From a virus: 64,000 nucleotides of DNA. Position numbers and translations under genes: made by a program. Positions 51,066 through 60,714 of this stretch are shown here, piece after piece (the stretch's first letter is position 1; each line of letters starts with the position of its first letter). The notes under the pieces are model-generated. The model ran no database searches. It had not been told where the DNA came from and saw nothing but the letters and a program-made list of their open reading frames with translations. The stretch spans positions 20,386 through 84,385 of the IMG/VR virus record IMGVR_UViG_3300006914_000013; one strand, written 5' to 3'.

Positions 51066-51512
51066 CTAGACCAGCCCCTGCTCGGCCAGGCTGACGATGG
51101 TGCGCCCGACCACGAAGTGATCGAGCAGCTGGATGTCGACCATGGCCAGCACCTCCTTCAAGCGCTTGGTCAGGGCGATGTCGCCCCGGCTGGGGTCGGG
51201 GTTGCCGCTGGGGTGGTTGTGGAACACCAGACAGGCCGCCGCGTTGTGCGCGATCCCGGCCCGCACCACCACCCGCGGGTGGACGCTGGCCGAGTCGATC
51301 GAGCCGGTGGCCAGCACCTCGGTGTGGACCAGTTCATGGGCATTGGTCAGCCACATCACACCGAACGCTTCCTCGGTCAGGCGGCTCGCCCACACCCGCA
51401 GGTAGTCGCTCACCACCTGCGGGCTGGTGAGGATGTAGCCGGTGTAGGTCAGGCGCCGTTCGGCGATCTGCAGGGCGGCGGACAACACCGCGTCGTCGTC
51501 TTCATAGGTCAT
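51066..51512 (-). CDS. radC: RadC-family JAB-domain protein
   Basis: 148 aa. The metal-binding motif FHNHPSGNPDPSRGD, an upstream LATGSIDSASVHPR and LDHFVVG are diagnostic of the RadC JAB/MPN domain. The N-terminal helix-hairpin-helix of chromosomal RadC is absent, as in the many short RadC copies on plasmids and islands. Its role is unclear despite the name. Confidence 0.88.
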   Translation of the reverse strand: MTYEDDDAVLSAALQIAERRLTYTGYILTSPQVVSDYLRVWASRLTEEAFGVMWLTNAHELVHTEVLATGSIDSASVHPRVVVRAGIAHNAAACLVFHNHPSGNPDPSRGDIALTKRLKEVLAMVDIQLLDHFVVGRTIVSLAEQGLV

Positions 51513-51527
51513 GGCAGGGACTCCGGG

Positions 51528-51728
51528 TTAGCCGATCAGGGCGAACTGGCGCAGGGCAGCGGTGCGGCCGAGGACCTGTTCACCTGGGCGGTGGCGGTTG
51601 CGCAGGAAGGCCAAGGCATCGCGGCGGTGCTTGAAGCTGGCCAGCAGCTTGGCGAAGGGTTTGCCCGTGCTGTCGGTGGCTTCCTGCGGGGCGAGCAGGA
51701 CGAACTGGCCTTTGGGGTCTTGGGTCAT
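51528..51728 (-). CDS. Hypothetical protein, 66 aa
   Basis: A small basic protein (KLLASFKHRRDALAFLRNRH). Start ATG with GGAG upstream. It precedes radC by 15 bases and is probably in the same transcript. No family recognised. Confidence 0.6.
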   Translation of the reverse strand: MTQDPKGQFVLLAPQEATDSTGKPFAKLLASFKHRRDALAFLRNRHRPGEQVLGRTAALRQFALIG

Positions 51729-52655: not shown

Positions 52656-53327
52656 TTAGGCTGGGGCCAGGTCCTTGGGCGCCATGCTCAACTTGATTTT
52701 CTGAACGGTGGTTTTCGAGCACTCGCAGACCTCGGCCACCTTGCGAATGGCCATGCCGGATTTCAGGCAGGCTTTCACCCTGGCGTGCAGGGCTTCGTCG
52801 GCCTTGCGCCCGGTGTACTTGCCTTCGATCCCTTTGGCTTTCTCGATGCCCTCGATCGTCCGGCGGCGCCGGTCCTCATAGTCCTTGCGCGCAATGGCCG
52901 CGAGCATGTCGAGCAACAGGTCGTTCATCGCCGAGAGCATCCAGCCAGTGAACGAGTGTTCGGCCTGCGGATTCATCAGCGGGTGCGAAGTCGGCAGATC
53001 GAGCGACACGATATGCAGGCCCTTGGATTTGATGACCCCGCGCAGAGTGTCCCAGTCGTTCTGGTTCAGCCTGCTGAGCCGGTCGATCTGTTCGCAGAGA
53101 ATCACGTCGCCGGGTTGGGAATCCTCCAGCAGCCGGAAAAGTTCCGGGCGGTTGAGTTTGGTCCCGGTTTCGTTCTCTGGGTAAAAAGTAGCGATCCGTT
53201 GGCCATAACTCTCGGCGAATGCAAGCAGCGCGCCTTTTGCGCGCATCGCGTCCTGGGCGATGGTCGATGCGCGCAGGTAGGCGCGAACCATGGGTGTGGG
53301 CGGCAATTTTGCCTCTTGAGCGCTCAT
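52656..53327 (-). CDS. Serine recombinase (resolvase/invertase family)
   Basis: 223 aa with AAGGAGG upstream. The catalytic serine is in YLRASTIAQ (S21), followed by ILCEQIDRLSRL near 75 and the E-helix region; the C-terminus has GKYTGRKADEALHARVKACL and an HTH of the Hin/Tn3 type (residues ~185-212). It most likely resolves plasmid multimers to monomers, supporting ParA-based inheritance. A set of inverted and direct repeats lies immediately upstream. Confidence 0.9.
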   Translation of the reverse strand: MSAQEAKLPPTPMVRAYLRASTIAQDAMRAKGALLAFAESYGQRIATFYPENETGTKLNRPELFRLLEDSQPGDVILCEQIDRLSRLNQNDWDTLRGVIKSKGLHIVSLDLPTSHPLMNPQAEHSFTGWMLSAMNDLLLDMLAAIARKDYEDRRRRTIEGIEKAKGIEGKYTGRKADEALHARVKACLKSGMAIRKVAEVCECSKTTVQKIKLSMAPKDLAPA

Positions 53328-53339
53328 AGCGCCTCCTTT

Positions 53340-53404
53340 GTACCAGTTAGAAGTGCCAGTTGATGTTGTACCGGTTAGAGTCGGTTATTTCCACTAACTG
53401 GTAC
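53340..53404. promoter_or_regulatory. res-like site of the serine recombinase
   Basis: GTACCAGTTAG (53340-53350), TGCCAGTTGATG (53354-53365), GTACCGGTTAG (53368-53378) and the inverse CTAACTGGTAC (53394-53404). The outer two are exact inverted repeats of 11 bp. This spacing of half-sites resembles Tn3-type res subsites. It begins 12 bases upstream of the recombinase start, so binding would also repress the gene. Confidence 0.7.
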
Positions 53405-53476
53405 GGAATACGGGGCGAAATTTTGGGCCAGCCCAGCCATGGCCATTGTTACCCCCGTAAACCGGGGGTTTCGGGT

Positions 53477-53800
53477 TTAGTCCCGTTGTTTGGCAAACGC
53501 CTTTCGGAAAGCGGCGCCCATCGCGGTTTTCGAGTTCGCCAGCCGTTCGGCCTTAATCCGGTCCTCGACCGGTTTCGCCCGACTGCGCTGGGCGTGCGCT
53601 TCCAGTTGCGCCACTTTCCGCGCCTGCCGGGCGCGCCAGGCCGATTGGTCGGCCGCTTCGACCTTGGAAAATTCGCGGCTCGCGAGTTGGGATTCCCACA
53701 AACTCTGGATAGACCGATCCCCCTGGGAATCGCCCCATATGCCGACCGTGCTGGAATAGTGGGCGCGATCAAGCGCGCCCTTCGAATCGTCGAAAGACAT
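53477..53800 (-). CDS. Hypothetical charged protein, 107 aa
   Basis: AAGGGG lies upstream of the ATG. A Ser/Asp-rich N-terminus and an Arg/Ala/Lys-rich helical C-terminus (ARQARKVAQLEAHAQRSRAK). No family recognised. The opposite strand also holds a long open frame, but it lacks a good start context. Confidence 0.55.
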   Translation of the reverse strand: MSFDDSKGALDRAHYSSTVGIWGDSQGDRSIQSLWESQLASREFSKVEAADQSAWRARQARKVAQLEAHAQRSRAKPVEDRIKAERLANSKTAMGAAFRKAFAKQRD

Positions 53801-53846
53801 ACGAACCCCTTCGCGCCCTGGGCGCGCAAAAATAGACAGGCACGCG

Positions 53847-53871
53847 AAAGCCCCCGGCTAGCGGGGGCTTT
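53847..53871. terminator. Bidirectional intrinsic terminator-like hairpin
   Basis: AAAGCCCCC, seven-base loop, GGGGGCTTT: a 9-bp stem with A and T flanks. It follows the stop of the 337-aa gene by 14 bases and is the likely end of that operon. Confidence 0.75.
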
Positions 53872-53884
53872 CCGTTTCGGCGTT

Positions 53885-54898
53885 TTACAGACCGGCTACG
53901 CGACGACCACGGCTAGCAGCCGCTTCCATGTCGCTTTCCTGTTCTGGCGTTACGCCTTGCGATTTCAGGTCGTCAAGGTGTTTAGCCGCGTCAAGCGCTT
54001 CACGGCTAGCCGTCCCGACACTAGCCAAGTCAGTTGGTTTGCCGTCAACGTGCGATTCCAGCGACTCAACAGCGCCCTCTTTATGCTCTTTATCCTCGGT
54101 TGCCGTCGCAATTTGCGCGGCCTTTTCAGCGCGCTCAATAGCGTTTTTAATCGTCGCCCGTGTGGTCGGCTCTAACGCCAGAATCGCGTCTATTGCGCCG
54201 TCTGGTGAATGCTTGAAAGCAGACGCGATAGACTTAGCCGCTTTCTGCGCGTCTGAATCAACCGTCTTTTCCTTTACAGGAACAGACGTAACTTCCAACT
54301 TTTTCCAGTCAACATAAAGGCCGTATTTATTCAGGTCGCGTTTCAACATGGCGACAATCGCCTCACGCGCATTTTTTGCCATGTTTCCCTTTTCTGCTAG
54401 GCACCATGTCGAGCTGGCCAGCGCTTCGGCCTTTTTCTGCGCGGCCTTGATACCGGCGGACACTACGCCACACAAAAGGCGAAAGTCAGTCAGCGACTCG
54501 ACTACAAAAAACGCTTCCTTTGCCGCCAGTTTGGCGACTGCGCAGGCGTCAACTTCGGCCTGAGAACCCCCCTCGAATAGCGCGCTTTCCAGCGTATCGA
54601 ATTCACCATAAAGCGCTTTCGCTTTTTCAGTCAGCTCCACCATAAGGTGCGCAGTGATAGGCGTTTTGAGCGCGACGGCAATACCCGCGACAGACGCCAC
54701 TTTATCCGCGACGACATGCCAGATATTTTGCCCGACATCTTTAAGAGCGACAGCGCCCTCAATGTCACCAGCGGACTCAACTTTAGTCAGCAACTTGCGC
54801 CACTCTTTAGAGTCAACGGCACGCGCAACCACAAGATCAATAAGATCCTGAGAATAACCGCCAGTCAGGTCAACTTTTACAGATTTAGAATTTTTCAT
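53885..54898 (-). CDS. Unknown Ala/Lys-rich helical protein, 337 aa
   Basis: A start with GGAG nine bases upstream. It is helical and Ala/Lys/Glu/Asp-rich (AIERAEKAAQIATATEDKEH), without Trp/Cys clusters or catalytic motifs. Codon choice is richer in A and T than in the neighbouring genes. An upstream 45-aa membrane peptide is translationally coupled (ATGA). Possible roles include a scaffold or a DNA/membrane adaptor; nothing decides between them. Confidence 0.75.
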   Translation of the reverse strand: MKNSKSVKVDLTGGYSQDLIDLVVARAVDSKEWRKLLTKVESAGDIEGAVALKDVGQNIWHVVADKVASVAGIAVALKTPITAHLMVELTEKAKALYGEFDTLESALFEGGSQAEVDACAVAKLAAKEAFFVVESLTDFRLLCGVVSAGIKAAQKKAEALASSTWCLAEKGNMAKNAREAIVAMLKRDLNKYGLYVDWKKLEVTSVPVKEKTVDSDAQKAAKSIASAFKHSPDGAIDAILALEPTTRATIKNAIERAEKAAQIATATEDKEHKEGAVESLESHVDGKPTDLASVGTASREALDAAKHLDDLKSQGVTPEQESDMEAAASRGRRVAGL

Positions 54899-55032
54899 TT
54901 TGTGATACTCCGGGACTGTAACGACAGAGCGTCTGTAATCTTGCCAATGCTAGCGCTAACACCAGCGCCCACCTGTACCGCCAACATGGCAGTGATAGCG
55001 AGCACAACTAAAGAGGCGATGATATGGCGCAT
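54895..55032 (-). CDS. 45-aa membrane peptide coupled to the 337-aa protein
   Basis: MRHIIASLVVLAITAMLAVQ is a single transmembrane or signal-like helix, followed by a short Gly/Ser/Ala segment and the end SRSITK. GGAG lies eight bases upstream of the ATG, the same spacing and sequence (GGAGTATC) as for the downstream gene. Its stop overlaps the next ATG (ATGA). It is too short for routine ORF calling but has every sign of a real coding unit. It could also work as a leader peptide. Confidence 0.7.
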   Translation of the reverse strand: MRHIIASLVVLAITAMLAVQVGAGVSASIGKITDALSLQSRSITK

Positions 55033-55088
55033 AACAGATACTCCGTGTTAGGTGTGGGCAAAGGCGCTGCGCCTCGACATCCACAAAA

Positions 55089-55105
55089 CGCGACATTTTG
55101 TCGCG
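55089..55105. terminator. Attenuator-like hairpin in the leader of the 45-aa gene
   Basis: CGCGACA-TTT-TGTCGCG; on the minus strand it is followed by TTTTGT (55088 onward), and on the plus strand by a T run. It lies between the -10 box and the gene start, so it could terminate early transcripts. Confidence 0.5.
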
Positions 55106-55221
55106 CATTTTTTGCTAGGCGAGCTTTCCCCCTGGGCCACTTGCGCGGCTCACTGGGCGCGCCCCCCTGCGGGGGCGACTCGACTAGCAGCTACTTTTTA
55201 AAGAACGGGTACTACACTGAA

Positions 55222-55227
55222 ATTATA
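55222..55227 (-). promoter_or_regulatory. Perfect -10 box (TATAAT) upstream of the 45-aa gene
   Basis: On the minus strand TATAAT at 55227-55222, with no good -35 hexamer at the right distance, so the promoter may need an activator. GTACC half-sites lie on both sides (55211 and 55241). A ~180-base leader with two hairpins separates it from the gene. Confidence 0.5.
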
Positions 55228-55439
55228 GACGATAGCCAATCTGGTACACGGTTTTATCAATAATATTATTGCATAGCCTATATAACCAACAATACGCACC
55301 ATGTAAGAGCATGTAGACCTGGAAATAAACATGCCAATAAGCCTGGCAATGGACCCCGACCACACTTTTTCCCGACGAACGGCTGCCTGGCCCTAACCTT
55401 AGACCCCCTTTCCATACCCAACCCCCCCAAAATCCCAGC

Positions 55440-55452
55440 GGTACAGTGTACC
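55440..55452. promoter_or_regulatory. GGTAC-AGT-GTACC operator-like element
   Basis: It shares AGCGGTAC-(A/T)-GTGTACCA with the element upstream of parA (minus orientation there, 37535-37547). Single half-sites GTACAC recur at 55242 and 55532. The two full copies suggest a common regulator of partition and of the divergent operons. Confidence 0.55.
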
Positions 55453-55896
55453 AGGCCCCCGAAACCGCCCAATCCACCGGAAAATACCGTGCCAACTAAC
55501 GCAACACGTTAACCCACGCTGTAGCCCATAATGGTACACACCCCCACCCCGAAAATGCCCACCCCCGGCATTGCCCAGGGCGTCACTGGTGCCTCCCACC
55601 CCGCCCGTGCTAACGTCGCCGTAACGGGTCCAGTGCATTGGCAGATCGCTGCTCCCGTCGAGCCGCCCGCTGGCTTTCCGGGACAGCGGGCAGCTCACCC
55701 TCCCCGAACACCACCGCCCCAAAAACACCCCCAGCCCCCTATTCCAGCGCCCCCAGCCCGCGTGCTACCGTGCGCCGACGCTGCCGTTTGCCTGACCCCA
55801 CCCCAGGCAGGTACGTCCCGGGCGGCCGTGTCGATGCCCTCACCGTCGACACAGGCCCCCACCTATTCGCACCACCATCCGCAAGGAGCGCCGCCG

Positions 55897-56208
55897 ATGT
55901 CTGCCAGCCATTCCCTCGACGCCGAAATTGCCGGCGCCGGTCGCCCCGACCTCAGTACCCGCCAAGGCCGCGCCACCCACCGCACGCACGTCCTGTCGAC
56001 GGTCGTGCGGCGCATGCAGGTCCTCGACCGCCTGACCCCGGCCGACGCCATGGGCTTGTTCCCCGCCATCCTCAAGCACCTGTATGCCCTGCACGCCATC
56101 GGCCTGCTGACCGACACCGAACTGCGGCTGGGCTTCGCCGACCTGCGCCGCACCTACGCCCGCGAGCAGCCGACGCTGGTGGATCTACTGCCTGAAAAGG
56201 ACGCCTGA
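55897..56208 (+). CDS. Array protein 1: small helical protein, 103 aa
   Basis: The ATG at 55897 has AAGGAG eight bases upstream; the frame is open much further but the preceding text is Pro-rich and unlikely to be coding. The core VRRMQVLDRLTPADAMGLFP then HAIGLLTDTELRLGFADLRR then T-Y-A-R-E-Q-P is shared with array protein 2. All helix, no catalytic residues seen. First gene of a nine-gene coupled run. Confidence 0.75.
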   Translation: MSASHSLDAEIAGAGRPDLSTRQGRATHRTHVLSTVVRRMQVLDRLTPADAMGLFPAILKHLYALHAIGLLTDTELRLGFADLRRTYAREQPTLVDLLPEKDA

Positions 56209-56210
56209 CC

Positions 56211-56516
56211 ATGGCCACCACCGAAACCCTCGACGAAGCCATCAACCGCCTGCACCTGCCGGACCTGACCGACGCCCAGGCCACCGCCGACTACCGCGCC
56301 GCCGTGCTGGTGGCGATCGTCCGCCAGTTGCAGGTCCTGCACCTGCGCCCGGCCGACGCCGCCCTGCACCTGCACACGCGGATCGTCAAACACCTGGAAG
56401 CGCTATGGGGCATTGGCCTGCTGACCGACGAACGCTTCCAGCTCGGCCTTGCCGACCTGACCCGCGCCTACGAGCGTGAACACCCCGGACTGCTGGAGAG
56501 CGCCCGCCATGGCTAA
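56211..56516 (+). CDS. Array protein 2: paralogue of protein 1, 101 aa
   Basis: Two bases after the previous stop. Shared features with protein 1: L-P-D-L-T start, V-R-Q-L-Q-V-L, R-P-A-D-A-A, KHLEALWGIGLLTDERFQLG, L-A-D-L-T-R-A-Y-E-R-E-H-P. About half of the core positions are identical by eye. A clear tandem duplication that has since diverged. Confidence 0.78.
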   Translation: MATTETLDEAINRLHLPDLTDAQATADYRAAVLVAIVRQLQVLHLRPADAALHLHTRIVKHLEALWGIGLLTDERFQLGLADLTRAYEREHPGLLESARHG

Positions 56517-56868
56517 CGTCACCCCCGGGCAACGCGCCGCGCTGGATGCGCTGATCCAGCACCTGTCCGACCCGCGCCCCGACCTCCACACCGACCGTGG
56601 CCGCCTCGACTACCGCGACCTGCTGCTGGCACAGAACGCCCGCGCCCTGTGTGACCTGCAGGAACTGAACCCGGACGCGGCGGTGTTCCTCTACCACCTG
56701 GCGTGCGAGCGCTTGCGTGAGTTGTTGACCATGCAGCTGCTCAGCGAGGCCCGCGCCAAAGACCTGATCGGCGAGCTGGTCACGCTCTACGGGGGGTACC
56801 GCCCCGAGCTGCTGCCGCGCATCCTGACCGAAGCCAAACACAATACGGAAGGGACTCTAGATGCCTGA
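56509..56868 (+). CDS. Array protein 3: diverged paralogue, 119 aa
   Basis: The ATG at 56509 overlaps the end of gene 2 by 8 nt. It retains R-P-D-L-H-T, D-Y-R-D-L-L-L, the L-N-P-D-A-A segment and the C-terminal LRELLTMQLLSEARAKDLIG with an Y-x4-P-E-L-L end, aligned with proteins 1 and 2. The longer frame to 56476 is disfavoured. Confidence 0.72.
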   Translation: MANVTPGQRAALDALIQHLSDPRPDLHTDRGRLDYRDLLLAQNARALCDLQELNPDAAVFLYHLACERLRELLTMQLLSEARAKDLIGELVTLYGGYRPELLPRILTEAKHNTEGTLDA

Positions 56869-57169
56869 AATGACCCTGACCCTCGATTCCCCGCAACTGG
56901 TCGCACTGTCCGCCTTTGGCGCACGCTTCCACGCTTACGCCGACCTCAAAGACCCGCTGTTGGCCATCACCGAAGCCGCCCGCCTCAAGGGCCGGTTGGA
57001 GGTGCTGGTGCAGCTGGAGCTGTACACCCCCGAGGAAGGCCTAAAGGCCCGGCAGATGATCGACTTGCTGCTGGCCTCGATCCTCGAAACCTACCTCGAC
57101 GAGCGTTATGACACCGCCCCGGTGCGCGGCCTGCTGACGACCCAGCACGACCATGTGAAGGGCTTCTGA
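56861..57169 (+). CDS. Array protein 4: small helical protein, 102 aa
   Basis: Overlaps gene 3 by 8 nt. The centre LKGRLEVLVQLELYTPEEGL followed by K-A-R-Q-M-I-D-L-L-L resembles the helix-turn-helix-like core of the array but much diverged. Helical throughout. Confidence 0.68.
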   Translation: MPEMTLTLDSPQLVALSAFGARFHAYADLKDPLLAITEAARLKGRLEVLVQLELYTPEEGLKARQMIDLLLASILETYLDERYDTAPVRGLLTTQHDHVKGF

Positions 57170-57170
57170 C

Positions 57171-57497
57171 ATGCCGGAATACACCCAACACGAACTGAAC
57201 CAGCTGCACGCCATCGCTCGACAGCAGATCCGCTTTGTCACCATGGCCCAAGACGCCCAGGCGGCGAGCAACCGGCGTTTCAATGTCCTCGGGGTGTTCC
57301 AGGGCTTGGTGCTCTGCGGCGCGCTGACCGACGAGCAGGCCCACGCGCTGGTGGTCGAACTGCAACAGACCACCGTGGGCCGGATCGACGAACTGACCCA
57401 GCAGGTGCTGCACGACACCTTGGCGCCAGGCGGCGTGCATTGCACCGGCCACGTCGACTACGACCCGAGCAGCCGCAAGCCGGAGGGGAAGCCATGA
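57171..57497 (+). CDS. Array protein 5: small helical protein, 108 aa
   Basis: One base after the previous stop. The core FQGLVLCGALTDEQAHALVV matches the G-x-L-T-D-E-x-x-x-L motif of the array. The C-terminal 30 residues are an unrelated, polar tail with a CTGHVDYDP segment. Confidence 0.68.
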   Translation: MPEYTQHELNQLHAIARQQIRFVTMAQDAQAASNRRFNVLGVFQGLVLCGALTDEQAHALVVELQQTTVGRIDELTQQVLHDTLAPGGVHCTGHVDYDPSSRKPEGKP

Positions 57498-57760
57498 GTG
57501 ATATTTTCCCCGGGGCGCGGCTGTTCCAGATCAAGGCCACCCACGGCGTGCCGCTGGACATCACACTGGACCTCCTGTTCAGCCGCCACCTGCGCGTGGA
57601 CTGGCAGGGCTTCGTCGACGAAGCGCGGCGCAACCACTGGTGGGACTTCCAGACCCTGGACGTGGTGCAGAACGCCTTGGCCGAGGTGCTGGACCACACG
57701 GACCAGCAGGCCATCCTGCTGCGGCTCAAGCGCTACATGCTGGAGAACCGACTGCCATGA
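57494..57760 (+). CDS. Array protein 6: small Trp-containing protein, 88 aa
   Basis: The ATG overlaps the previous stop (ATGA). The start FPGARLFQIKATHGVPLDIT and the WWDFQTLDVVQNALAEVLDH helix differ from the paralogue core, so this is a different protein inserted in, or far diverged within, the array. Confidence 0.68.
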   Translation: MSDIFPGARLFQIKATHGVPLDITLDLLFSRHLRVDWQGFVDEARRNHWWDFQTLDVVQNALAEVLDHTDQQAILLRLKRYMLENRLP

Positions 57761-58155
57761 CCCCCCTTGAAGACATCATTAACCGCAACATCGCCGCCAT
57801 CCTCGACGCCTTGCAGGCGCGGTTCGAAGCCCGGCCGCTCGACCCCGAGTTGCAGGCGTTGTTCGAACTTGCCGCGACCTCGGTGAGCCTGGTGTTCCCG
57901 GCCAACGCCGAGCAGGCCACCGAAGAACAGCGCGCCGGCTACGTGGCCAGCCTGAAAGCGCGGATGGACTCGCTGGGGCCGCTGTTCCGCTCCAGCCGCG
58001 ACCCGGCCCGCGCCCTGCGCAGCCTGGTGATCTGCTGGCACTGCATTGACCGGCTGGAGCAGGCGCAGTACCTCGACCGCGAGCAAGGTAACGCCATGAA
58101 GGGCGAGGTGCTGGCGCATTACGCGGTGTACGCGCCGATTGAGCCGCCGCAATGA
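57757..58155 (+). CDS. Array protein 7: helical protein, 132 aa
   Basis: ATGA overlap at the start. A longer helical N-terminal part (LDALQARFEARPLDPELQAL), then CIDRLEQAQYLDREQGNAMK, which keeps the spacing of the array core, and the end Y-A-V-Y-A-P-I. Confidence 0.68.
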   Translation: MTPLEDIINRNIAAILDALQARFEARPLDPELQALFELAATSVSLVFPANAEQATEEQRAGYVASLKARMDSLGPLFRSSRDPARALRSLVICWHCIDRLEQAQYLDREQGNAMKGEVLAHYAVYAPIEPPQ

Positions 58156-58394
58156 CCGCCGAGCCCGACCGTGGCCCGGTCTACACCGCGCTGCTGGAAC
58201 ACCTCGACCACCTGCTCGACCACCTGCTGCCGCTGGCCAGCGACGACGGCGCGTTTCAGATCCTCACCGCCGGCCGCGCTACGGTGCGCAGCCTGTACGG
58301 CCAGGGGTTGCTCGACGACGCCGAGGCCGAGGCCCTGATGGATCGCGTGCATGGTGCCTACCGCAATCACAGCCCCGGAGGCTTCCTGCAATGA
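58152..58394 (+). CDS. Array protein 8: small helical protein, 80 aa
   Basis: ATGA overlap at the start. His/Leu/Asp repeats near the N-terminus (LLEHLDHLLDHLLPLASDDG), then VRSLYGQGLLDDAEAEALMD and V-H-G-A-Y-R-N-H-S-P, closely following the core motif of proteins 1 and 2. Confidence 0.7.
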   Translation: MTAEPDRGPVYTALLEHLDHLLDHLLPLASDDGAFQILTAGRATVRSLYGQGLLDDAEAEALMDRVHGAYRNHSPGGFLQ

Positions 58395-58654
58395 CCCACA
58401 AAGAACTCCAGCAACAGACCCTGGGCAACCTGCGCCGCGGCCTGTTGTTCCTCCACGACAGCAGCGAGGAAGCCGCCATGCTGGTGATCGGCATGCACAT
58501 CACCGCGCTGGGTGTGCTGCGCCGCCACAAGTACCTGACCGTCGATGAACTGATGGAGGAAATGCGCACGCTCTATGTGGCCGTCGAAGAGACGCACCCG
58601 GGTAAGTGGGAAGCGTTCGGCGGGCCGCGCCTGCCCGACACCTTGAAGGCCTGA
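58391..58654 (+). CDS. Array protein 9: small helical protein, 87 aa
   Basis: ATGA overlap at the start. The core LGVLRRHKYLTVDELMEEMR followed by T-L-Y-V-A-V-E-E-T-H-P fits the array motif. Last of the coupled run; a 43-base gap follows. Confidence 0.7.
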   Translation: MTHKELQQQTLGNLRRGLLFLHDSSEEAAMLVIGMHITALGVLRRHKYLTVDELMEEMRTLYVAVEETHPGKWEAFGGPRLPDTLKA

Positions 58655-58697
58655 CCTACACTAAAAGGGGTCAGCCACCAAAAAGTGAAGACCCCCG

Positions 58698-59123
58698 ATG
58701 AACGCACCCGCCGCCGCTGTTGCTGCCCCGATCCCCTCCCTGTACCACCGCCCCGAAATGATCGCCATGCCGGCCACCCTACCGGAGTGCGAGACCCTGC
58801 GCGTCGAGCTGGATTCGACGATCATCGAGCTGAGCAACAAGCTCGACCTGGTGCGCCGTCGCAGCAAGACCGAGGGCACGTTCGCCGATTCCGAGTGGTA
58901 CAGCCGGGCGACCGCCAAGCTGCGTTATCTGCGCCGCGACCAGCAGCGCCTGATGCGCCACGTCGCCGAGCTGCACAAGGCCGAACGGATGGACGCCAAC
59001 AGCGTCGACCTGGTGCTGCTGCGCGAGCTGCGCAAGACGTTGGGGGAGGAAGCCTATCAGGCCCGCTGTGCGCAGGCCTTGGCGGTGCTGCTGGGGCCGG
59101 TCACTCAGGATCAGACGGCTTAG
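58698..59123 (+). CDS. Hypothetical coiled-coil protein, 141 aa
   Basis: A helical, Arg/Leu/Glu-rich protein (TIIELSNKLDLVRRRSKTEG, RYLRRDQQRLMRHVAELHKA) with an Ala/Pro N-terminus. It does not share the array core. The 3' end overlaps the rep gene tail to tail by 23 nt. It probably belongs to the array transcript. Confidence 0.65.
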   Translation: MNAPAAAVAAPIPSLYHRPEMIAMPATLPECETLRVELDSTIIELSNKLDLVRRRSKTEGTFADSEWYSRATAKLRYLRRDQQRLMRHVAELHKAERMDANSVDLVLLRELRKTLGEEAYQARCAQALAVLLGPVTQDQTA

Positions 59124-59727
59124 GGTCGCCGAGGGCCAACCTGCCTTGGTTGGCCTTCAACTGCTCCAGTTCCAGCTGCTTGGCCGCCTTGGTCCCGGCG
59201 CGCACGTAGTCATGAACGATGCGGATGCGGTCGCCCTTGTAGAACAGGTTCGGGTTGACCCAGTACAGGCTGTCCATCCCTTCGACCGGGGCGATGAAGC
59301 CTTTCACACACAACTCGTTGGTGCCGTTGTTGAAGCTCGCCCGCGACTTATCGAAGCCGTAGTACAGGCGCACCATTTCGTGGTTGAAATACAGTTGGTC
59401 CGGCTGATTTTTCTGCTCAAGGTAGACGTTCATAATCGCCTTGAACACGTCCTTCGCCGGTTTGGTCAGCTCAAACACTTCCATGATCCCGGCGCCGAAG
59501 AATTTCACGAATTCCTCTTTGTCGACGATCTTTTGCACCCCCACTACGGCAATATCACTGGTCACCTCGCCGGTGGATCGGTTGATCAGGTCGTGTTGCG
59601 AGGTGGCGAAGCCAGTAACCTTGCGACCCTTCTTGATCGTATGCACCAGTTCACCGGCCCACGGGTTAACCCGGGTGGGGGTGATTTCTGCACGGGTCGT
59701 GTAATACCCTTTTTTCTCATCGGCCAC
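59101..59727 (-). CDS. repA: Plasmid replication initiator (Rep)
   Basis: 208 aa from a GTG start (an in-frame TAA lies directly upstream). DIAVVGVQKIVDKEEFVKFF, a central winged-helix region and S-L-Y-W-V-N-P-N-L-F-Y-K-G-D-R-I-R-I-V are, from memory, typical of RepL/RepA-like initiators of small Proteobacterial plasmids. It faces away from a dense iteron array just upstream, the classical arrangement of iteron plasmids in which Rep binds the repeats to open the origin and repress its own promoter. The GTG start would keep expression low. Confidence 0.82.
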   Translation of the reverse strand: MADEKKGYYTTRAEITPTRVNPWAGELVHTIKKGRKVTGFATSQHDLINRSTGEVTSDIAVVGVQKIVDKEEFVKFFGAGIMEVFELTKPAKDVFKAIMNVYLEQKNQPDQLYFNHEMVRLYYGFDKSRASFNNGTNELCVKGFIAPVEGMDSLYWVNPNLFYKGDRIRIVHDYVRAGTKAAKQLELEQLKANQGRLALGDPKPSDPE

Positions 59728-59768
59728 TTAGCTGTAAACCCCTGTTTTTACGCTGCTTCTGGCAGCCG

Positions 59769-60051
59769 TTCTACCGGTCTGGTGTGAATACTAGTCACTT
59801 TTCTACTAACAGGGTAGAAAAGACCTATCTTTTTCTGTCTAAGTCCGCAGACTTTCTAACAAAACGCCAGAAAACGCCGGGGCATTTCTACCTCGACGGT
59901 AGAAAACACCCCTAGTTTTCTACGATTTCACGCAGAAATTCTAACGAACCGTCTTGAATCCCGTTAGAATTTCTACCAGACCAGTAGAAAAAGACTGTGT
60001 ATTTCTACCGAAACAGTCTCAAATTCTACCGACTCAGTGTGAAATTCTACC
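59769..60051. repeat. oriV: Iteron origin of replication (oriV)
   Basis: Six direct TTCTACC cores (59769, 59886, 59971, 60003, 60024, 60045) and two inverted GGTAGAA (59813, 59898), plus at least six variants (TTCTAAC, TTCTACT, TTCTACG, GTTAGAA, AGTAGAA). The last three lie exactly 21 bp apart, two helical turns. The region is AT-richer than its surroundings and has no gene. The rep start is 40 bases to the left. Confidence 0.85.
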
Positions 60052-60163
60052 AACTGCCCTTGAAAACAAAGGCCTCCAGAGCAGGCTTTCTTAATCTTAG
60101 ATATAGGGGTGTTTCAGACGCCCTCAAAAGCCTGACGCCTCGCTTCGCTCGTTGTCGGGTCAA

Positions 60164-60457
60164 TCAAGCCCCGGGGCGGTGAAGCTGCCCCGGATCTTGC
60201 TCGACCTCCCTGCACAGCTCAGCCACTTTCAGCGCTCCAGCGGCCAGCCCGCCGATGTTCAGGCACAGCACCTGGCACAAGCGGGCGACCAGCATGAACG
60301 AAGGCGCTGCCTGCCCGTGCTCGATCTCCCACAGGTAGGATTTCGAGGTGCCTGCCTGCTTGGCCACTTCGTCCAACGTCAGGCGCATGGCCTTGCGCTG
60401 GACGAACATGAACTGGCCCAGGTATTCCGTTTCCGGTGTTGCTTTGGTCCCGCTCAC
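60164..60457 (-). CDS. XRE-family transcription regulator
   Basis: 97 aa from a GTG that overlaps the upstream stop (GTGA). The HTH LTLDEVAKQAGTSKSYLWEI with E-H-G (residues ~26-48) is a standard Cro/CI-type domain, followed by a helical C-terminus. It sits next to oriV and may control replication or lysogeny genes. The 110 bases to its left contain no gene. Confidence 0.82.
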   Translation of the reverse strand: MSGTKATPETEYLGQFMFVQRKAMRLTLDEVAKQAGTSKSYLWEIEHGQAAPSFMLVARLCQVLCLNIGGLAAGALKVAELCREVEQDPGQLHRPGA

Positions 60458-60714
60458 CGTTCGAAGGGTACTTTGATTTCCAGGCCCTCCGTGGAGCCGA
60501 CGATCGCACTGATCAGCACAGCGTGCAGACCGCGCAGGTTGATTTCGGTGTCCATCGCCAAGCGTTCGCCGGGCTTTTCCAGCACCCGTTTCAACGCCAG
60601 GGCGTAGAAAAAGGCGTTGTCACCGCGAATGAACACCCCGGGCCAGTCGTTACCAAATTGCAGCGCGCCGGATTCCACGCGGTCTTCTTGTTCGGGGAGT
60701 AGCTGAATTGTCAT
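60454..60714 (-). CDS. Hypothetical phage protein, 86 aa
   Basis: The ATG overlaps the upstream stop (ATGA). A small alpha/beta protein (DWPGVFIRGDNAFFYALALK) with a C-terminal E-G-L-E-I-K-V-P. Similar uncharacterised proteins occur in phages, from memory. Confidence 0.65.
   Translation of the reverse strand: MTIQLLPEQEDRVESGALQFGNDWPGVFIRGDNAFFYALALKRVLEKPGERLAMDTEINLRGLHAVLISAIVGSTEGLEIKVPFER

Follow-up and report, generated by a model that had tools for sequence, protein, structure and literature searches.

Nine short genes that are tightly coupled on the + strand of a phage genome (A1 to A9, positions 55897-58654 of the 64,000-nucleotide window analyzed here, which covers bases 20386-84385 of the 84,385-base virus record IMGVR_UViG_3300006914_000013) may form a recombining accessory cassette of early host-interaction proteins, whose common basis would be a helical docking core and which would be expressed behind one leader RNA. 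We favor this reading tentatively and at somewhat less than even confidence, because no functional match backs a use of the array in anti-defence or host take-over. The locus is present on seven further contigs (L007, L017, L018, L019, L020, L048 and L049), one of which, L007, is nearly identical to the window (99.87% over 8.3 kb).

Array Content Turns Over Faster than the Terminase

The nine open reading frames (ORFs) encode proteins of 80-132 amino acids (aa) and follow one another, from A1 to A9, at distances of +2, -8, -8, +1, -4, -4, -4 and -4 nt, where negative values are overlaps. Coordinates, lengths and junctions agree with the original prediction, which had missed both a tenth gene (A10, 58698-59123, + strand) between the array and the adjoining replicon and a structured leader before A1. 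The coding status of the array ORFs is backed by codon-usage scores and by orthologues with a ratio of nonsynonymous to synonymous substitution rates (dN/dS) below 1 in most comparisons. A10 (141 aa) starts 43 bases past the array end, before the RepL-like replication gene, and belongs to a separate family with a weak match to phrog_6158.

Relatives carry different gene sets at this position. L017, L018 and L019 contain A1, A2, A5, A8, A9 and A10; L048 contains A3, the leader, and then A1, A2, A4, A5, X, V, A9 and A10; L020 contains A1, A2, A4, two copies of A5 (A5a and A5b), X, Y and Z; and L049, which is the same contig as L044, has a 12-gene version that contains A4, A3, A5, W, A7, U, a 291-aa fusion of X and A8, Y, Z, V and A9. 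The window, L017, L018, L019 and L048 retain A10 downstream of the array, and L020 and L049 have a 79-aa gene in its place. The terminases of L017, L018, L019 and L048 are 96-97% identical to that of the window, the terminase of L049 is 86% identical and that of L020 83%. Since array content differs among elements whose terminases are 83-97% identical, array turnover outpaces that of the terminase, a virion-assembly gene, by far, and it takes place at a conserved genomic position. Single alleles are also replaced: the A9 copies of L017 and L019 are only 64% identical, against 91-99% for the other array genes compared and 100% for Rep. Tandem duplication with divergence, which had been predicted, is seen in A1-A3 of the window and in A5a and A5b of L020.

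These comparisons bear directly on the proposal, made in the original prediction, that the array encodes co-translated subunits of one fixed hetero-oligomeric assembly. Co-translation through overlaps, the paralogy of A1-A3 and the shared core described below would all suit such an assembly, but close relatives with a 96-97% identical terminase carry five array genes plus A10, or other sets, in place of nine plus A10; A3, A4, A6 and A7 are missing from close relatives or give way to other genes, and several gene sets and orders occur among relatives with the same terminase. Conserved order and partnership, whose loss had been named as telling against a single system, are lost in part, as A3 and A4 have traded places in L049, the leader of L048 comes after A3 and several relatives lack one gene or another. 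We consider a fixed assembly highly improbable. A smaller complex is possible, for example of A1 and A2, which are neighbors in all relatives except L049.

Genes Are Joined at Short Seams

Across the arrays we counted 46 junctions, namely 18 overlaps of 4 nt, nine of 8 nt and two of 11 nt, and 17 gaps. The 8-nt seam ATGCCTGA combines the start of the downstream gene with the stop of the upstream gene, and among the relatives it joins five different gene pairs (A3|A4, A2|A5, A2|A4, A4|A5 and A3|A5). In the window, A6 stands between A5 and A7 and is bounded on each side by ATGA; this slot belongs to W in L049. The A8 protein of L019 starts with MIIPVEGFEYPE and, because this resembles the N terminus MIKTVDGFEYPD of the X-A8 fusion of L049, looks like the fusion minus its middle. 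The junctions suggest that genes are exchanged at short seams that preserve coupling.

Array genes have a higher dN/dS than their flanks, with a median of 0.75 versus 0.34 in L048 (p = 0.0005) and of 0.70 versus 0.35 in L020 (p = 0.0025); they are constrained all the same, as dN/dS is mostly below 1. Values of 0.4-1.2 in many members, along with gain and loss of genes, would be expected of a relaxed and nearly dispensable locus of ORFans, i.e., small coding sequences under weak selection and without a common purpose. Reading frames and coupling overlaps are nevertheless intact in all array copies, identity among the A2 proteins of the set is 76-90%, and the array is preceded by a conserved structured leader, which together make such a locus unlikely.

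A Helical Core Is Shared by Most Array Proteins

A1 (55897-56208, 103 aa), A2 (56211-56516, 101 aa) and A3 (56509-56868, 119 aa), all on the + strand like the rest of the array, are paralogous as originally predicted, with phmmer E values of 1e-20 for A1-A2, 6e-6 for A1-A3 and 1e-4 for A2-A3 and profile-profile probabilities of 95-99%. A core profile was built from A1, A2, A3, A8 (58152-58394, 80 aa), A9 (58391-58654, 87 aa) and V with their orthologues from the relatives, and was evaluated by leaving out one group at a time. The left-out groups were recovered with probabilities of 97% (A1), 98% (A2), 91% (A3), 87% (A8), 70% (A9) and 94% (V), and groups outside the profile matched at 88% (Y), 57% (C-terminal half of A7; 57757-58155, 132 aa), 53% (Z) and 44% (U), compared with a maximum of 2.9% among 67 other proteins of the genome. 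A4 (56861-57169, 102 aa), which has orthologues in L020, L048 and L049, scored at this control level (2.2%), and A6 and A10 scored about zero. A5 (57171-57497, 108 aa) reached 7% and was otherwise found only through an iterated profile, which drifts in later rounds, picking up both a control protein and a shuffled sequence, and which we therefore took as a hint only, with the leave-one-out values deciding.

Judged by these profiles, six of the nine array proteins share the core, one is doubtful and two are without it. Of proteins 4, 5, 7, 8 and 9, which were predicted to keep a shorter version of the core, 8 and 9 do so, as does 7 in its C-terminal half; the link is weak for 5 and unsupported for 4. 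That protein 6 stands outside the family was borne out. A single family of all nine is not borne out by the comparison, which links 1, 2, 3, 8, 9 and, by its C-terminal half, 7, and leaves out 4 and 6.

The structure model of A2 (predicted local distance difference test [pLDDT] 82, predicted template modeling score 0.67) has three long helices at residues 22-41, 48-67 and 73-90, flanked by short helices at the ends; its GLLTD motif falls on the turn that leads into the last of the three. No match to the core profile was found in the jumbo phages that carry A6 relatives, in PMBT3, in Vibrio phage K45 or in Cygsa01, and within the sequences searched the core family looks lineage-specific. The core is coupled to varied modules, namely the N-terminal half of A7, U, the partner in the X-A8 fusion, whose C-terminal domain is A8, and a C-terminal extension in V. 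Because the core is combined with different modules in this manner, and is fused to one of them in L049, a docking module with variable effectors fits better than a fixed complex. The alternative offered in the original prediction, a set of adaptors each with its own target, fares better on the same grounds.

The C-terminal tail of A5 (GGVHCTGHVDYDPSSR; window 57417-57485) includes a stretch, VHCTGHVDYDPxSR, which is possibly a shared short motif: it recurs within proteins (L015:2686-3126 and L063:1243-1857) that are not related to A5 in other respects and that come from the Pseudomonas syringae phages Cygsa01 (E 2e-3) and QdP_Psa3 (16 aa, weak).

The Array Has a Structured RNA Leader

A leader RNA (55761-55896, + strand) lies directly before A1 and has two hairpins (55777-55817 and 55820-55860) within a predicted outer stem (55762-55774 with 55880-55891). 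All arrays whose start was read have such a leader of about 136 nt, with an invariant GTGCTACCGT at its 5' end and a Shine-Dalgarno sequence at its 3' end; in the window, the base before CGTGCTACCG is G. A covariance model built from six sequences (R1) was searched in the window and the relatives and matched nowhere but where an array starts, with E values of 1e-12 to 1e-34. In the model alignment 92% of cells pair and 11 pairs have changed on both sides yet kept pairing; in the second hairpin, two-sided changes are seen at six pairs. The covariation score was reached by none of 500 shuffles, and sliding the partners by 1-3 columns lowered pairing to 38-45%. These counts leave out a weak L049 row on the minus strand (E 0.78), which had inflated them, and they lean in favor of the model, as it was made from the same sequences, which represent effectively three clades. 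No Rfam match was found up to E = 1 in region 53300-60500, and three extra contigs that matched a looser leader pattern were not scored by the covariance model and had unrelated contexts, and were put down to chance.

In the outer stem, the invariant GTGCTACC could pair with GGAGCGC and would cover the first Shine-Dalgarno sequence, for which the predicted mean openness is 0.19-0.34.

A second GTGCTAACG element lies upstream of the leader (55607-55615, + strand), before two further hairpins (element and hairpins within 55605-55700) that are strong in the window and in L048 and are not predicted above shuffles in every relative. We considered GTGCTANCG as a genome-wide promoter motif and rejected it, as its two copies in the window are not above chance. 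The leader Shine-Dalgarno sequence, CAAGGAG, resembles a CsrA site and the phage has its own csrA gene (L002:1255-1449, - strand, Pfam 6e-25); on sequence grounds, CsrA control of the array is conceivable.

A6 Resembles a Segment of Alanyl-tRNA Synthetase

A6 (57494-57760, 88 aa), which is foreign to the array family, matches profile positions 380-423 only of the 552 in Pfam tRNA-synt_2c (4e-5) and an NCBIfam alanyl-tRNA synthetase (AlaRS) model (1e-4), in both cases below cut-off. Two phage proteins annotated as alanine-tRNA ligase, one from XaC1 and one from Totoro (UQT03023.1), share 45-46% identity with A6, and its family occurs in jumbo phages. The A6 model (pLDDT 93) has catalytic fragments of AlaRS as its best matches in the Protein Data Bank (PDB; probability 0.91-0.99, E 0.27-1.1), the tightest of which align 44-47 columns at 1.5-1.8 Å. 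The modeled fold is AlaRS-like over about 45 residues, which are 30-34% identical in the structural alignment and correspond to the last part of the tRNA-recognition region in the catalytic fragment.

Unlike the synthetase, A6 lacks a catalytic aminoacylation domain. In AlaRS, the Asp or Glu of a short peptide reads the G3-U70 pair of the tRNA-Ala acceptor stem (PMC6451123). Residues 14-18 of A6 (KATHG) align without gaps on YDTYG of the E. coli enzyme, and in all 23 phage relatives the peptide reads [KV][AT]THG, i.e., Asp or Glu is replaced by Ala or Thr and Tyr by Lys or Val, with Thr-His-Gly kept. We infer that A6 is a stand-alone binder of acceptor stems, or of a similar helix, without specificity for alanine.

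Adjoining Replicon and Genome Setting

Downstream of A10, the RepL-like replication gene (59101-59727, - strand), whose best plasmid matches are annotated as RepL, is followed by iteron-like repeats (TTTCTACC and GTAGAAA, 59799-60052) upstream of the rep gene and by a helix-turn-helix (HTH) regulator (60164-60457). The array of L048 has a Rep_3 initiator (1e-31) next to it and not a RepL-like one, which implies that no single replicon is required for the array to be kept. The array might serve plasmid maintenance or copy control, as it adjoins a replication gene in the relatives read on that side and the genome encodes ParA, a resolvase and the RepL-like protein. The initiator, however, changes to Rep_3 with the array kept, and array content varies freely, so the special role in maintaining this replicon that had been suggested originally is disfavored and we regard it as very unlikely. 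Superinfection exclusion or immunity-group specificity, in which each array variant would mark or exclude a competing phage, could explain allelic turnover beside an HTH regulator in phages of one genus; we judge it quite unlikely, given that the proteins have no hydrophobic membrane segments (by eye) and match no known exclusion family.

The record shares 120 identical bases between its ends (direct terminal repeats) and encodes terminase, tail and DNA-polymerase genes together with the RepL-like gene, ParA (phrog_164, 4e-40), a resolvase, the HTH regulator, RadC and CsrA. As plasmid-type genes stand beside virion genes on one element, a phage-plasmid lifestyle is likely. The RepL-like initiator, ParA, iteron-like repeats, terminase and tail genes and direct terminal repeats are features in common with described phage-plasmids (PMC11652158). 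The closest cultured relatives by terminase and DNA polymerase (about 32-36% identity) are Pseudomonas phages PMBT3 (Maxrubnervirus) and Lana and SHOU24-like Vibrio phages, which have genomes of similar size. Scans of a one-per-species set of bacterial genomes found no relative and no host genome.

Several further features were seen near the array. An inverted repeat, GGGGTC...GACCCC, lies just before the A10 start (58667-58695) and is also present in L017, L019 and L048; ahead of it is a stretch that resembles CCTGACCTAAACTCAAGG and reads CCTACACTAAAAGG in the window. The Rep_3 module of L048 (L048:3572-4600; terminase 96% identical) has GGGACAGATTCGCGGTTTAAA iteron-like repeats. In the accessory region, a RadC-like JAB gene (51066-51512, - strand, 4e-37) adjoins a small gene (51528-51728, - strand) that is unusually conserved (98% identical in L019). 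A 337-aa gene (53885-54898, - strand) with no match in Pfam or PHROGs borders the control region, and genes similar in position and composition occur in L017, L019 and L020.

Discussion

In the cassette that we propose, the structured leader would allow all genes to be read from one start and, with GTGCTACC paired to the Shine-Dalgarno sequence, would probably limit translation of A1. The shared three-helix core could act as a common docking module, and the private extension of each protein might engage a different component of the host or of a competing phage, early after entry or during plasmid residence, with counter-defence or host take-over as the outcome. Gain, loss, duplication, fusion and replacement of genes at seams (ATGCCTGA or ATGA), with coupling kept, would retune the set to the host. 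A6 would be a captured foreign member, predicted to bind the minor groove of a tRNA acceptor stem, or a similar helix, without G3-U70 specificity. It is tempting to go further and propose a dedicated cassette-exchange system of this phage genus, with one leader that sets expression of the entire array, seams at which any gene could be swapped with coupling intact, a docking core by which very different proteins would join a common host-side or phage-side hub, and captured genes such as an AlaRS-derived acceptor-stem binder, but we consider this extended version doubtful.

Clustered small, fast-changing genes are a pattern of phage early accessory regions. By analogy with such genes of mobile elements, anti-defence or host take-over would be the most likely use of the array. 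Small proteins of phages have been reviewed (PMC11323111), and the anti-defence islands in plasmid leading regions (PMC11541004) likewise consist of clustered small, fast-changing genes at a fixed site with gain and loss between close relatives; the present array differs from these islands in its common helical core and structured leader and in having no recognized inhibitor family.

A number of results weigh against the proposed cassette. The excess of dN/dS over the flanks is not significant in L019 (p = 0.11), and other accessory genes of the phage (48.6-51 kb) are likewise high in dN/dS. The outer stem is invariant, therefore covariation neither supports nor refutes it, and the stem that would occlude the Shine-Dalgarno sequence is weak in L049. 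The core fold is that of a generic helix bundle: a fold search with A2 in the PDB and among viral models gave nothing significant, the matches being bundles of this type, ribosomal protein S20 among them. No array protein matched a known function above the curated Pfam and NCBIfam cut-offs or convincingly in PHROGs or PADLOC, none of which is a collection of counter-defence proteins (PADLOC covers defence); Pfam, PHROGs and NCBIfam likewise gave no convincing match to a family of known defence inhibitors. Matches to AstE, MIT, LAO-binding and BrxE families were below cut-offs and were taken as chance. Phage and plasmid records held no DNA similar to the array, and a search with the concatenated array proteins gave phage matches only for A6 and the A5 tail and none in plasmids.

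Variable clusters of tiny phage genes are the source of many host-control and counter-defence proteins and usually have no recognizable common feature. In the array described here, the common core, the conserved leader and the visible seams are handles by which members may be found by structure and tested as a set. The A6 family, in turn, bears directly on the question whether the part of AlaRS that reads tRNA has been put to new use, as a protein of its own, in jumbo and other phages.

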